Shown here: in pieces, positions 16,217-24,314 of the stretch
Position numbering within the stretch: the stretch's first letter is position 1
Layout: the number at the start of each line of letters is the position of its first letter
NCBI GenBank assembly: GCA_019694595.1
Contig: JAIBBQ010000034.1
Location: 1 to 41,665 of the forward strand
Direction of reading: 5' to 3'
From: Myxococcaceae bacterium
Lineage (GTDB): Bacteria; Myxococcota; Myxococcia; Myxococcales; Myxococcaceae
Length of the DNA stretch: 41,665 bases
The notes under the pieces: model-generated
The model's input: the letters and a program-made list of their open reading frames with translations, nothing else
Told to the model about the DNA's origin: nothing
Database searches by the model: none
Translations under genes and position numbers: made by a program

Positions 16217-18154
16217 TCACCGGGACTTGAGGCGCTTGGCCTGCCAGTCGAGGTGCCCCGGGAGCACCTCGAGCCAGTGGCTCCAGGCGTGGCCTCCGGG
16301 GGACTCCTTGAACTCGTGGGGCACCTGGAGCTCGTCGAGCACCGCATGGAGCGCCCGGTTGGGCGGCGCCCACACGTCCTCCGAGCCCACCGTCAGGTAG
16401 AGCGGCAGCGCCATGGCCTGCTGCCGCCTGGCGCGCACCATGTGAATCGCGGAGTGCTCTTCCCACGCCGCCTTGTTCTCGGCGTACGGCCCCAGCCGCG
16501 CGATGAGCGCCGGACGCTTGTCGGCCTTGGAGAGGTCGACCGCCCCGCTCATCGAGCTCACCGCCTCGAAGATGCCGGGGTACTTGAGGCCGAGCACGAT
16601 GGCGCCGTTGCCGCCCATCGACAGGCCGATCACCGAGCGCCGCTTGGCGGTCGGCAGCCGGGCGTCGACGTCGGGGATCAGCTCCTTCATGAAGTAGGTC
16701 TCCACGCTGGCGCCGGGCACCTTGCTGCTGTCGAGGTACCAGCCGTTGGGCGTGCCGTCGGGGGTGACGACGATGATCCGGTTGGCGCCGGCGAAGGCCT
16801 GCAGCGTCGCGTGCGCGCGGTCGGAGAAGTCGGTCCACGCGCCGTCGGCGCCGTGCAGCAGGTACAGCACCGGGAAGCGCTCCGCCGGGTTGTCGCCCGG
16901 TTGAGGAACGAAGGCGAGGTAGTGGCTGGTGTCGGCGAGCACCACCGATTCCACGTCCATCACCATCGCGCGGGCGAGCGCGCGGTCCTTCGGGACCAGC
17001 GGCAGGAGCCGCTCGAGCCGCCAGGACAGCTTCTCGGCCACGAAGGTGGCACCGAGCCGGCCGTAGTGCACGCCGTCGCCCAGGTACATCTGACCCGACT
17101 TGCCGCCGTAGACGATGGTGGCGCGGGAGTTGCCTTCCTCGTCGGCGGCGAGTTCCCAGGTGTCGACGTAGATCGCCCCCGCGGCCTCTGCGGTCTTCTG
17201 GGTCACCTCGTTGACCACCTTGAGCTTCGCGGAGTGCTTGGGCAGCCGGGTGATCTGCATGCCCAGCATGATCGTCTTCGCCTTCGCCGCCGACGCGAGG
17301 TCGATGACCTTGCGCACGCGCCGCGCGTACTCGGTCTTCCACTCGTCGGTGCCGAACGCGAGCACCTTGCCGCCTTCCACTTCCAGCGGCTGCCCGTCGT
17401 TGCCGCCGAACTGGGCGATGACCACCGTGGGCTTGAAGTTCTCCAGCAGCTTCGGGAGGTGCGTCAGCCAGTCGAAGGTGTCGGGCCGGGCGAGGCCGGT
17501 GCCGAGCTTGCCGAAGCGGTGGGTGACGGTGCTCTGGTACTGCTCGAGGCGGCGCTCGAGCTCGGCGCCCATGTAGAACTGGATCGACGACGCCCCGACG
17601 ATGAGGATCCGGTTGCGCTCGGTGCCGGTGCCCACGTTGGCCGGCAAGGGCGCCGCCCCCGGGTCCGGCTCGGCCTGCCCCGCTTCCACCACCGAGGCGC
17701 CGCCGTCTTCCAGCGCAGGCGCCTTCTGCTTGATGGGCGCCAGGCCCGCGTCGATGAGGTCTCGCAGCTTCGCGGGCCCCAGCAGCTCGCTCGCGCTGGT
17801 GAGCCCGTTGACCAGGGAGAGGAGCCACGCGCGCTGGGAGAGCCCTTCGTCGTGGACCACCGCGCTCTGCAGATCGCGCGCGCCGTAGAACGACAGCGCC
17901 GCCACCACCACCCAGAGCCCGAAGATCACCTGGCGCATCGGCAGCCCGGGCACCGCGCGGAAGTAGCGGGTGTCGTCGGCGGCCATGCCGACCGGGAGCC
18001 CGTCGGGGTCGAGCTCGGTGATGGTGGTGGCGTCGGGCTCGAACCACCAGCTGTTGCGGCGGCGCTCGAGCTCCGCGCGCTTCACCTCCGAAATGCTCCG
18101 GGGCTTCGGCGGGAGGCTCGTGGTGCTGCTGCGGCGCGGGCGCGGTGGGACCAT
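16217..18154 (-). CDS. Membrane-anchored SGNH hydrolase/acyltransferase fused to an esterase
   Basis: A 645-residue two-enzyme fusion. Residues 1-~72 are basic and cytoplasmic; a single membrane helix (VIFGLWVVVAALSFYGA) follows. The SGNH domain (about 180-400) shows VGASSI with Ser189/190 in place of GDS, QFGGND (block III) and LGDGVHYG (Asp-x-x-His, block V), resembling DUF459. The esterase D/feruloyl-esterase-like alpha/beta hydrolase (about 400-640) has VLYLLHGADG as oxyanion strand, nucleophile Ser512 in GLSMGG, and a His in GGHAWSHW. In known MBOAT systems (AlgI-AlgJ/X, DltB-DltD, PatA-PatB) an SGNH-type partner outside the membrane finishes acyl transfer, and an MBOAT gene lies 14 bp upstream here. 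Substrate and the esterase's role are inferred. Confidence 0.85.
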   Translation of the reverse strand: MVPPRPRRSSTTSLPPKPRSISEVKRAELERRRNSWWFEPDATTITELDPDGLPVGMAADDTRYFRAVPGLPMRQVIFGLWVVVAALSFYGARDLQSAVVHDEGLSQRAWLLSLVNGLTSASELLGPAKLRDLIDAGLAPIKQKAPALEDGGASVVEAGQAEPDPGAAPLPANVGTGTERNRILIVGASSIQFYMGAELERRLEQYQSTVTHRFGKLGTGLARPDTFDWLTHLPKLLENFKPTVVIAQFGGNDGQPLEVEGGKVLAFGTDEWKTEYARRVRKVIDLASAAKAKTIMLGMQITRLPKHSAKLKVVNEVTQKTAEAAGAIYVDTWELAADEEGNSRATIVYGGKSGQMYLGDGVHYGRLGATFVAEKLSWRLERLLPLVPKDRALARAMVMDVESVVLADTSHYLAFVPQPGDNPAERFPVLYLLHGADGAWTDFSDRAHATLQAFAGANRIIVVTPDGTPNGWYLDSSKVPGASVETYFMKELIPDVDARLPTAKRRSVIGLSMGGNGAIVLGLKYPGIFEAVSSMSGAVDLSKADKRPALIARLGPYAENKAAWEEHSAIHMVRARRQQAMALPLYLTVGSEDVWAPPNRALHAVLDELQVPHEFKESPGGHAWSHWLEVLPGHLDWQAKRLKSR

Positions 18155-18168
18155 GTCGGTTGAGCTCG

Positions 18169-19593
18169 CTAGAACTGGAAGTAGATGTACGGCGCGATGT
18201 CGCCCGGCTGCAACGCGAGTATCGCCATTCCGACGGCGACCCAGAACAGGGGCCTGAAGCGGGTGGGAATCCGTTCGTGCAGCTGGATGAACCAGCGCCG
18301 CAGTGGGCGCCCGACGAAGTTGAGCGCGAAACCGATGATGGTGGCCAGTACCACCCACCCGTCGAAGCCCTGGCCGACGGCGCTGACGCTGAACATGCGC
18401 ACGAAGTAGACGCCCGCGGTCTCGAGGTCGCCGGCCTTGAAGAGCACCCGGCTGAGCACCACCACGGTGAAGGTGAGGAACCAGCCCAGGCCCAGCCACC
18501 ACCACGGCTCGCGGCCGACGAGGCCGAGCGCGGGCCGGGCGTTGCGTACCGCCTTGTGAATGCAGAGCACCACGCCGTGCAGCGCGCCCCAGAGGATGTA
18601 GCCCCAGGTCGCGCCGTGCCACAGGCCGCAGATGGTGAAGGTGACGAAGAGGTTCAGGAAGGTGCGCGGCAGCGAGCCCTTGGAGCCGCCCATCGGAAAG
18701 TAGATGTACTCGCGCAGCCACTTGGAGAAGCTGATGTGCCAGCGGTTCCAGAACATGCCGGGATCGGTGGCGGAGTACGGCGAGTTGAAGTTGTCGGGCA
18801 GCCGGTACCCGAAGAAGAGCGCGATGCCGCGCGCCACGTCGGTGTAGCCGCTGAAGTCGCAGTAGAGCTCGACGGTGTAGGCGATGGCGGCGACGAACAG
18901 CGCCCCGCCCGAGTAGTTCTCGGGTGCGACGAAGGCGTCGTCCACCAGTCGGGTGGCGAGCACCGTCGCCAGCACGACCTTCTTGAAGAGGCCGGAGGCG
19001 ATGAGCGACACCGCCTGCGGCAGATCGACCATGCCTTCGGGCGGGCCGTCGGCGATCTGCTTGAGGAAGCGCTTGCTCTTCACCAGCGGGCCGGCGAGCA
19101 ACTTGGGGAAGAAGGCGATCAGCAGGAGGAAGTCGAGGAGCGACTGCGCCTTCTTGCCCTGGTGCCGGTAGAGGTCGACGACGTAGGCCAGCCCCTGGAA
19201 GGTGAAGAACGAGATGCCGAGCGGGAGCCCGAGCTCGAGCACGGTCTCGTTGGGCTTGAGGCCGAGCACCATCGCCACGTCGCGCGCGGTCTGGGCGACG
19301 AAGCCGAAGTACTTGAAGAAGCCGAGGAGGCCCAGGTTGGCCACCAGCGCGGCCCACAGCAGGTACTTGCGGTGGCGCACCTTGGTGGCGCGGTCCATCG
19401 CCTCGCCGAGGCCGTAGTTCACCAGCGACGAGGCGAACAGCAGCAGCATCGGCGGGATGCTGAGCTTGGCGTAGAAGACGTAGCTCGCCGCGGTCAGGAA
19501 CGCCTTGTGCGCCACCGGGCGGCCGCGCAGCAGCGACGCCACCGTGAGGGTGACCGCGAGGAAGTAGGCGAACTGGATCGAGGCGAAGTGCAC
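18169..19593 (-). CDS. MBOAT-family O-acyltransferase (AlgI-like)
   Basis: A 474-residue polytopic membrane enzyme of the MBOAT family, which moves acyl (often acetyl) groups across the membrane for O-acylation of polysaccharides. Visible signatures: YVFYAKLS near the start, FFTFQGLAYVVDLYR, DFSGYTDVARGIALFFGY, the strongly conserved DPGMFWNRWHISFSKWLREY followed by IYFPMGGSKG, and CGLWHGATWGYILWGALHG containing the catalytic His. The start is a GTG at 19593. It sits between a lectin-like lipoprotein gene (48 bp upstream) and the SGNH-esterase fusion (14 bp downstream), all on one strand, so the three likely act together. The exact polymer acylated is unknown; exopolysaccharide, spore coat or O-antigen are possible. 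Confidence 0.95.
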   Translation of the reverse strand: MHFASIQFAYFLAVTLTVASLLRGRPVAHKAFLTAASYVFYAKLSIPPMLLLFASSLVNYGLGEAMDRATKVRHRKYLLWAALVANLGLLGFFKYFGFVAQTARDVAMVLGLKPNETVLELGLPLGISFFTFQGLAYVVDLYRHQGKKAQSLLDFLLLIAFFPKLLAGPLVKSKRFLKQIADGPPEGMVDLPQAVSLIASGLFKKVVLATVLATRLVDDAFVAPENYSGGALFVAAIAYTVELYCDFSGYTDVARGIALFFGYRLPDNFNSPYSATDPGMFWNRWHISFSKWLREYIYFPMGGSKGSLPRTFLNLFVTFTICGLWHGATWGYILWGALHGVVLCIHKAVRNARPALGLVGREPWWWLGLGWFLTFTVVVLSRVLFKAGDLETAGVYFVRMFSVSAVGQGFDGWVVLATIIGFALNFVGRPLRRWFIQLHERIPTRFRPLFWVAVGMAILALQPGDIAPYIYFQF

Positions 19594-19641
19594 GGCTGCG
19601 ACCCGCGAAGTACCACGGTCGCGGGCCGTTGGGCGGTCCCG

Positions 19642-20778
19642 TCAGCGGCAGGGGATCATGGTGTCGTCCAGGGCCACGTCGTCGAGGTAGAAGTCGACCG
19701 CGTTCCCGAGCGTCTGGAAGTGGTTGAAGCCGAAGTCGAAGCTGGTCCAGCGCGTGAAGTCCCAGCCGGTGGCGGCGGTCACGTTGACTGCCAGGGTGCC
19801 GTCGATCCACAGCTTCGCGGTGTCCTTCGGCGGGTTGCCGGAGCCGTCGATCTGCCACTGGATGCAGTGCCACGTGTTGGTGGTGATGGTGCCGCCCTTC
19901 TGGCTCTGCTCGGTGCCCGCGGGCCAGTGGTAGTTGAACTGGGCCATGTTGCCGCCGCCGCCCATGTTGATCGACGCGTTGCCTCCGTCAGCCGCCGCAC
20001 CGACTGCGGCGAAGAAGGTCGAGTGCACGCCGATGGGGAGCCCGGCGTCGGCGTTGCCCACGTAGAAGATCTCGGCGCGTCCGAAGACGTTGTTGCTCGG
20101 AGTGATGCCGGCATCCGCCCGCTGGTTGAGCGTGGCTCGCGCGGGGCCACCGGCGGGCACCTGCACATGGAGCGCCCGGAAACCATTCTTCGGGTGCTGG
20201 CCGTCGACCGCCGCGACCGGGCCGGTTCCGCTCACGGTCGCCTTCCACGGCCCGAGGATCTGGTTGTTGGCGACGGCGCCGTTGTAGCCCTCGAAGTCCT
20301 CGCAGTAGCGCAGGCCCGCGCACGCTCCACCGCTGCCACCGCCTGCGCTCCCGCCGCCTGCGCTCCCGCCGCCTGCGCTCCCGCCGCCTGCGCTGCCGCC
20401 GCCCGCGCTGCCGCCGCCCGCGCTGCCGCCGCCTGCGCTGCCGCCGCCTGCGCTGCCGCCGCCTGCGCTGCCGCCGCCCGCGCTGCCGCCGCCTGCGCTG
20501 CCGCCGCCTGCGCTGCCGCCGCCTGCGCTCCCGCCGCCCGAGGCATCACCGCCACCGGTCCCGCCGCCCGCTGCGGTCCCGCCTCCCGAGGCATCGCCAC
20601 CACCCGAAGCCGTGCCGCCGCCGGACGCCGCACCACCTCCGGACGCTGCGCCACCACCCGAGGAGGACGCACCACCGCCAGAGCCACCGGCGCCGCCGCC
20701 GTCACCACCGCTCGTCTCTGGACCGCAGGCCGTGAGCAGCGCCACGACAGGGAGAATCAGCCAGCGAAACGCGCGCAT
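19642..20778 (-). CDS. Lipoprotein with (GGGSA)n linker and lectin/glucanase-like domain
   Basis: A 378-residue lipoprotein. The signal MRAFRWLILPVVALLTAC has Cys18 as the lipid site. About 130 residues of Gly/Ser/Ala follow, including 13 GGGSA units. The C-terminal ~220-residue domain starts at CAGLRYCEDFEGY and contains NGFRALHVQVPAGG, FGRAEIFYVGN, TNTWHCIQWQIDG and VDFYLDDVALDD, the strand pattern of concanavalin A-like lectins, glucanases and polysaccharide lyases. ATG 20778 follows GAGG at 8 bases and starts the signal; 18 upstream codons are ignored. The long flexible linker would hold the domain away from the membrane. It is upstream of the MBOAT gene, so binding or cleaving the acylated polysaccharide is plausible. 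Confidence 0.75.
   Translation of the reverse strand: MRAFRWLILPVVALLTACGPETSGGDGGGAGGSGGGASSSGGGAASGGGAASGGGTASGGGDASGGGTAAGGGTGGGDASGGGSAGGGSAGGGSAGGGSAGGGSAGGGSAGGGSAGGGSAGGGSAGGGSAGGGSAGGGSAGGGSAGGGSGGACAGLRYCEDFEGYNGAVANNQILGPWKATVSGTGPVAAVDGQHPKNGFRALHVQVPAGGPARATLNQRADAGITPSNNVFGRAEIFYVGNADAGLPIGVHSTFFAAVGAAADGGNASINMGGGGNMAQFNYHWPAGTEQSQKGGTITTNTWHCIQWQIDGSGNPPKDTAKLWIDGTLAVNVTAATGWDFTRWTSFDFGFNHFQTLGNAVDFYLDDVALDDTMIPCR
20341..20535. repeat. 13 tandem 15-bp units (GGGSA coding)
   Basis: Thirteen in-phase 15-bp copies of GCC(T/C)GCGCT(G/C)CCGCC, differing only at two third-codon positions, encode GGGSA on the minus strand inside the lipoprotein gene. Near-identity of the units points to recent expansion by slippage or unequal exchange. 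Unit number should vary between strains without changing the frame. Confidence 0.9.
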
Positions 20779-22520: not shown

Positions 22521-24314
22521 ATGGCTGACGTTCGAACGAAGAACCTGCCGGGCGCCGCCCGCGCCAAGGCGAGCGCCACCAGCGCGCCCAGCAAGGTCAC
22601 GCGCAGCACGCTCCCCGAGTTCGAGCGCGAGCCCACCCGCGGTCCGGGGGATCACGACGGATTTCTCCAGGGCCAGGGCGCACACGTCACCTCCAAGGCG
22701 GGCCACGTGGCCACCGGCTTCGAGCTGGGCGGCGCGCGGGGGAGCCCCCCCGTGGAGCACGCCTTCGAGCGGCTCGACGCCACCGCCGCGGCCTCGCTGG
22801 CCACGCTGGCGAAGGCCTTTGCCGCCCCGGAGCTCCAGGCCGTGCTGGGCACCCCGCCCCACTTCACGAAGTCGGACCTGACGTCGATGGGCCTGCACGG
22901 CACCCTGCGCGGCCAGAGCCTCGCCACGGTGGCCCCGGCGCTCGCCGGAGCGCTCGGCGAGGCCGCCAACTTCCTGCGGGCGCGTCCGAACGCCGCCTTC
23001 CTCGCGCAGCTCTCGCCGTCGAAGGGCATCACCGCCGAGGAGCTGGCCTCCGCCAGGCTCGCGGGCTTCAGCGCGCCACACGCCGCGATGCTGAAGGAAG
23101 CCCTGACCGCCTTCGCGAAGAGCGCGGCCGCGGTCACCCCCGGCGACACTGCGCCCGAAGGTCACGCCTTCACGCTGGCCGAGGTGACGACGCTGGCCGC
23201 CGGTGGAGCGTGCCCCGACGGCCAAGAGCTCGCGGCGGCGATCCCCGACAGCAAGGCGCGGCAGGCGTTCCAGAGCGCGGCGGCGCTCATCGCGCAGAAC
23301 CCCGCGGTGTTCCGCCAGCTCGACCTGTCCGGGCCGGGCATGGCCAACATGGCGATGACCAACGGCAAGTTCACCGCCACCGACATCAACCGCTTGCTGG
23401 GCGCGAACGGGCTCTCGCCCCTACCCCACCGGCCGACGTTCGACGCGCTGGTGAAGGCCACGCTGCCGCAGGTGGTGAAGCCATTCACCAGGCCGGTCGA
23501 GATCCACGACGTCGACCAGGCGAAGCGGGCCGAGCTGGCGCGCCTCTACACCGCGTGGGCCGACGAGACCGGCATGGTGGCGCACCACCAGGCCTGGCAC
23601 TCGGAGAACGGCTCCGGCGGGACCAAGGGCAAGGGCAGCGGCGAGAAGTTCCTGCAGTTCCACGCGCAGATGGGCGAGGAGTTCCGCCAGTACCTGCTCG
23701 ACCAGAAGCCGCCCCGCACCGATCTGTTCGACGCCAACGGGAACCTCCCGACCTGGGACACCCTGCAGCCGCTCCCCAAGGAGTTCTGGGAAGGCACCGT
23801 GAAGCACCAGATCGACTGGCGCCTGCCCGGGTTCCTGTCGCCCGAGCCGCGCAAGGGCGAGACCTTCACCCTCGACGGCCGGACGATCACCTGCCTCAAC
23901 GACATCAAGTCGCCCGACGAGCTCGGGCGCGTGTGGGGCGAGTCGGGGGCGCACGCGGTGGCCCACAACCAGCTGGGCGCCGAGATGGCCGGCTTCGCGT
24001 CGGTGCGCGACCCGGCGTTCCTGCTCTGGCACTTCGGGGTCATCGAGACCAACCGCGCGGAGTGGCTCGACACCGAGAGCGGCAAGGCGTGGACGGCGGC
24101 GCACCCCAGCGGCTGGACCGACCCCTTCGCCGACGCAGGCAAGGTGAAGTCGCCGCCCCGGGGCATCGCCCTGGGCGCGAAGTATCCCCAGCAGCCGAGG
24201 GGCCCGTTCTGGACCGACGATCAGATCCGCGAGGCCGGGGTCGGCTTCGTCGACCCGGCCAAGCGCCGGGCGGCCAGCGACCGCGTCGCCACCACGCCGC
24301 GCGCGGTGCCCTGA
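22521..24314 (+). CDS. Tyrosinase-like protein with enlarged CuA region
   Basis: A 597-residue protein without a signal peptide. Residues 1-~300 are Ala/Pro-rich and helical and not recognised; TNGKFTATDINRLL near 275 is weakly EF-hand-like. The C-terminal half resembles the tyrosinase (type 3 copper) domain. A CuB-like site is seen as His478-x3-His482 (HAVAH) and DPAFLLWH ending at His504, the same spacing as His190, His194 and His216 in Streptomyces tyrosinase. The usual DPxFxxHH has Trp in place of the first, non-ligand His. A CuA-like site has FLQFH with His381, preceded by His355, His356 and His360; the gap 360-381 is filled with Gly/Ser/Lys and the usual x8 spacing is lost. GGGGAG precedes the ATG. 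The copper assignment is inference. Confidence 0.6.
   Translation: MADVRTKNLPGAARAKASATSAPSKVTRSTLPEFEREPTRGPGDHDGFLQGQGAHVTSKAGHVATGFELGGARGSPPVEHAFERLDATAAASLATLAKAFAAPELQAVLGTPPHFTKSDLTSMGLHGTLRGQSLATVAPALAGALGEAANFLRARPNAAFLAQLSPSKGITAEELASARLAGFSAPHAAMLKEALTAFAKSAAAVTPGDTAPEGHAFTLAEVTTLAAGGACPDGQELAAAIPDSKARQAFQSAAALIAQNPAVFRQLDLSGPGMANMAMTNGKFTATDINRLLGANGLSPLPHRPTFDALVKATLPQVVKPFTRPVEIHDVDQAKRAELARLYTAWADETGMVAHHQAWHSENGSGGTKGKGSGEKFLQFHAQMGEEFRQYLLDQKPPRTDLFDANGNLPTWDTLQPLPKEFWEGTVKHQIDWRLPGFLSPEPRKGETFTLDGRTITCLNDIKSPDELGRVWGESGAHAVAHNQLGAEMAGFASVRDPAFLLWHFGVIETNRAEWLDTESGKAWTAAHPSGWTDPFADAGKVKSPPRGIALGAKYPQQPRGPFWTDDQIREAGVGFVDPAKRRAASDRVATTPRAVP

Follow-up and report, generated by a model that had tools for sequence, protein, structure and literature searches.

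A PatA/PatB-like MBOAT-SGNH unit with a fused CE1-type esterase domain in a Myxococcaceae bacterium, a candidate O-acyltransferase of a cell-envelope glycan

Genes at the locus

The window, by which we mean the whole stretch of 41,665 nucleotides analysed here, contains a group of three genes on the minus strand, located where a preceding sequence-only reading had placed them. A gene for a lipoprotein of 378 amino acids (20778-19642) is followed after 48 bases by one for an MBOAT acyltransferase (19593-18169, 474 amino acids with a GTG start, PF03062) and, after a further 14 bases, by one for a protein of 645 amino acids in which an SGNH domain is fused to a CE1-type esterase domain (18154-16217, PF04311 and PF00756). 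Since no sigma-70-like promoter was found and terminator-like sites occurred at about chance level, the operon call is based on strand and spacing; for the MBOAT and fusion genes the putative operon additionally rests on conserved gene order. Genes for a beta-lactamase-like protein and a DUF4124 protein lie beside the unit. We found no glycan pathway among the other window genes scanned, and no conserved neighbour indicating the polymer either in the window or in the relatives checked. An open reading frame of 597 amino acids at 22521-24314 of the window scores well as coding sequence and matches no Pfam family at E 0.01.

The lipoprotein has an LTAC lipobox and 13 uninterrupted GGGSA units at residues 81-145, the flexible (GGGSA)13 linker reported earlier. 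Its C-terminal domain had been called lectin- or glucanase-like, a designation backed by a single weak PDB match (8q28, E 0.019) and by no Pfam family, the domain having none. This domain gives six matches in its own genome; within the window's family it also matches in 10 further genomes, and not at all in G050, the independent genome of that family which also encodes a full-length fusion. We considered the lipoprotein as a third member of the unit and rejected it, as none of the related operons contained it. The three-gene system proposed earlier is thus reduced to an MBOAT-fusion unit that the lipoprotein gene adjoins without being a conserved member.

The fusion protein and its distribution

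The fusion comprises an N-terminal stub (residues 1-70), a single transmembrane segment at about 71-89 detected by hydropathy scan, a linker, the SGNH domain (about residues 182-376, positions 17027..17611 on the minus strand) and the CE1 domain (about residues 400-637, positions 16244..16957 on the minus strand). The reading frame is open throughout, with 0 internal stops, and matches PF04311 (DUF459) at residues 182-376 with an E-value of 4.5e-45 and the PF00756 esterase family at residues 419-634 with an E-value of 5.5e-29 (102 bits). The catalytic motifs, GASS at 187-190 (Ser189/190), GGND at 250-253, DGVH at 360-363 and GLSMGG at 510-515 (Ser512), are all at the positions given earlier. 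Homology to PatB suggests that both catalytic domains would be periplasmic. Single-sequence structure predictions were of low confidence, with mean pLDDT values of 39.5 for the SGNH-CE1 portion and 33.5 for CE1 alone.

The search for relatives covered 96 genomes from the window's family and a phylum sample of 195 genomes; genes in these relatives were called with a custom codon-usage script rather than a standard gene caller. Within the window's family the full-length fusion was present only in the window's own genome (G000) and in G050, where it shows 48-50% identity; three genomes of a second family (f11) also encode it at full length, with 39-45% identity. Because the fusion is full length in independent genomes of two families it is not a frameshift artefact, and frameshift or misassembly as its origin was ruled out by the same architecture in 4 other genomes at 39-50% identity. 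On these sequences the membrane-anchored SGNH-esterase fusion, encoded by one open reading frame here and in its relatives, is judged to be real.

The phylum sample yielded 8 matches at an E-value of 1e-40 or better, including three from a further family (f17) in which the esterase is degenerate. The two-gene unit, MBOAT followed by SGNH-CE1 or its f17 relative, was thereby found in 8 genomes from three families of the same phylum, with the MBOAT gene directly upstream on the same strand in every one, so that the fusion is kept beside the MBOAT across relatives, in support of the earlier interpretation. Conversely, the top 8 MBOAT matches in the phylum sample, scoring at least 440 bits, were exactly those beside the fusions or f17 relatives, and the next match scored 330 bits. 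MBOAT identity among the seven relatives was 47-64%. The eight sequences formed one clade in the MBOAT tree (support 100/99) and one in the SGNH-domain tree (97/97); the group required 1 change, compared with 6.3 for shuffled labels, and none of 500 shuffles was as low. The two trees were largely congruent, with matching family groups.

A split-gene ancestor, with a separate esterase beside an MBOAT-DUF459 pair, was not found by sequence search in the neighbourhoods checked, namely that of locus L036 and the short flanks of L073, L075 and L077. No plasmid relative of the whole fusion was found at 80% coverage, and viral contigs gave no relatives. A contig scan with exact peptide patterns returned one SGNH-only relative; these patterns missed known fusions, so the scan is uninformative on other phyla. 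The window's own genome contains a second MBOAT and DUF459 pair lacking CE1 (L036:454-3117), which comes closer to PatB by score, with 92 bits, and may be an ordinary peptidoglycan system.

Transferase and esterase domains

The window MBOAT matches PF03062 with an E-value of 2.5e-30, and its best solved relative is DltB (6bug, E 7e-32). DltB also gave the best profile match (TIGR04091), with a score of 170 that is far below the cut-off of 375, and no AlgI model matched this protein in the profile scan. The earlier description of an AlgI-like MBOAT holds as regards an MBOAT with an SGNH partner and is corrected as regards AlgI, since the DltB model is best and the SGNH partner belongs with PatB/DUF459. 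The protein ends in a C-terminal acyl-shuttle motif, YIYFQF, containing Tyr471; this residue, His286 (RWH) and His326 (LWHG) were invariant in all nine aligned MBOATs. In the account of PatA given in PMC12148441, the tyrosine of the C-terminal hexapeptide is auto-acetylated and the acetyl-tyrosine peptide serves PatB as donor.

Among solved structures the SGNH domain is closest to PatB (7trr/7tjb), with an E-value of 8e-15 for the single sequence and 5e-28 for the profile, and Ser189 of the fusion aligns with the PatB nucleophile. Ser189, Asn252, Asp360 and His363 were invariant in 8 of 8 proteins, such that in each genome a membrane-anchored SGNH protein with a Ser-His-Asp triad and block III Asn adjoins the MBOAT. 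A hydrophobic wall behind the catalytic serine has been described as separating PatB from hydrolases; by sequence alignment the corresponding positions are Leu297 and Val362 in the window protein, and Leu or Ile and Val or Ile among relatives. The block II residue, given as non-glycine in PatB (Ser161/Asn165), is glycine (Gly218) in the window protein, which agrees with ordinary SGNH hydrolases; relatives have Gly, Ser or Ala there. Against the PatB equivalog model NF045704 the window fusion scored 55.7 bits, below the cut-off of 580, and the five relatives scanned scored 62-107 bits. The window MBOAT-fusion pair has the parts for PatA/PatB-type transfer. For the DUF459/PatB family, peptidoglycan is the acceptor named as characterised in the sources consulted.

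The CE1 domain is closest among solved structures to proteins annotated as feruloyl or broad esterases (7xrt, E 1.2e-30; 5vol, E 2.5e-28). Ser512, Asp593 and His622 align with 7xrt, so that both the SGNH and CE1 triads of the window protein are intact by alignment to solved relatives. The CE1 triad is intact in 5 of the 8 proteins, comprising all five of families f1 and f11, across which the region shows 42-53% identity with the triad surroundings also conserved. In f17, by contrast with the intact SGNH domain of all three members, the triad positions are occupied by Gly, Ala and Pro in one genome and deleted in the other two, and the esterase part is shortened in two of the three. Identity of f17 to the other families is 18-32% in the esterase region and 38-45% in SGNH. 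Because f17 is sister to f11 on the MBOAT tree (support 93/93, just below the starred threshold), the simplest reading is that f17 lost an active esterase. Since f17 lacks the esterase triad while its SGNH domain is intact, the SGNH half is the core of the unit and esterase catalysis an accessory. The earlier idea of acyl editing is weakened as a necessary part of the system: three f17 genomes without the triad retain SGNH and MBOAT, so the unit does not depend on an active esterase.

Proposed function and related systems

We propose, at about even confidence, that the unit is a PatA/PatB-like MBOAT-SGNH O-acyltransferase modifying a glycan of the cell envelope, with a CE1-type esterase built into the SGNH subunit. 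In this scheme the MBOAT would move an acyl group, most likely acetyl, from a cytosolic donor to Tyr471 of its C-terminal motif on the periplasmic side; the SGNH domain, anchored in the membrane, would take the group onto Ser189 and pass it to the polymer; and CE1 (Ser512-Asp593-His622), in the same chain, would take acyl groups off that polymer or one next to it, occupying the place of Ape1 in patA-patB-ape1. The acyl-transfer half has good support from homology and from conserved catalytic and shuttle residues, and an acylated polymer is the presumed target of the CE1 domain. More tentatively, and somewhat short of even confidence, writer and eraser of an envelope acyl mark would share one polypeptide, the acylation level of one polymer would be set within a single membrane complex, and one lineage would have lost the eraser's active site and kept the writer.

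Other roles for CE1 have to be weighed. The domain could serve chiefly for structure or glycan binding, placing the enzyme at its polymer, with residual catalysis, in an SGNH-MBOAT pair that is still an O-acyltransferase. Members of f17 do retain part of the CE1 sequence after triad loss, at 36-43% identity among themselves, and other C-terminal modules have been gained too, such as the ankyrin repeats at the C-terminal end of the fusion in G098 and G100. However, conservation of the triad and its surroundings in all five f1 and f11 proteins, at the overall identity given above, points to catalysis having been kept there, and we regard a mainly structural role as rather unlikely. Action on a different substrate, for example foreign polymers bearing acyl or feruloyl esters, with the fusion providing only a shared membrane anchor, would fit the annotation of the nearest solved relatives. 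We consider it quite unlikely, as the protein has an N-terminal membrane helix instead of a plain secretion signal and the partner domain of CE1 was an MBOAT-linked SGNH in every genome found. Very unlikely, in our assessment, is a second acyltransferase like the Ag85/Cmt1 branch of the fold, passing acyl groups to another acceptor: the profile does reach the Cmt1 and Ag85 mycolyltransferases (4e-12 to 1e-5), but these matches are partial and weaker than those to hydrolases (1e-30 to 1e-19).

The proposed acyltransferase with a built-in esterase most resembles PatA-PatB-Ape1 of Gram-negatives (Neisseria, Campylobacter), which shares an MBOAT with a C-terminal shuttle tyrosine, a DUF459 SGNH partner and a dedicated, co-encoded esterase. 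As set out in PMC12148441 and PMC5077204, the patA-patB-ape1 cluster is a separate-gene precedent for coupling a transferase to a deacetylase of its own, Ape1 being the enzyme that removes the groups and, in the former source, an SGNH-type esterase. In the window the esterase is instead fused to the SGNH subunit, and it matches the PF00756 alpha/beta-hydrolase family and no SGNH family, which sets it apart from the Ape1 type; the fusion also falls far below the PatB equivalog cut-off. It is possible that it represents a one-chain counterpart of PatB plus Ape1 with a non-homologous esterase. The DltB/DltX/DltD D-alanylation system shares the route from MBOAT through a tyrosine shuttle to an SGNH protein and includes the nearest solved MBOAT, but the window shuttle tyrosine is on the MBOAT itself, and Dlt in the descriptions consulted has no fused esterase. 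AlgI/AlgJ/AlgX and other MBOAT-SGNH systems of exopolysaccharide acetylation share the division of labour between MBOAT and SGNH, whereas the window SGNH is of the DUF459/PatB type, and we recognised no genes for exopolysaccharide in the window. SGNH acyl transfer to an envelope glycan through an acyl-tyrosine step is likewise a feature of OatA and other AT3-SGNH fusions; here a separately encoded MBOAT supplies the membrane part in place of a fused AT3 domain, and the fused domain is a CE1 esterase. We found no fusion or bifunctional transferase-esterase of this kind among the titles and abstracts that searches of an open paper library brought up, a scope outside which most subscription papers lie.

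Envelope-glycan acylation influences how autolysins and lysozyme lyse cells; in Gram-negatives the groups are attached by PatB and taken off by Ape1. If writer and eraser do reside in one gene, their balance would be testable by point mutations of that single gene. The f17 relatives, in which the esterase triad is missing and the rest is kept, offer a natural comparison.

At two f11 loci (L049:7612-10095 and L050:8343-10895) CE1 is followed in the fusion by ankyrin repeats and a basic tail. This extension is on the predicted non-cytoplasmic side, and a gene for a response-regulator receiver lies downstream.
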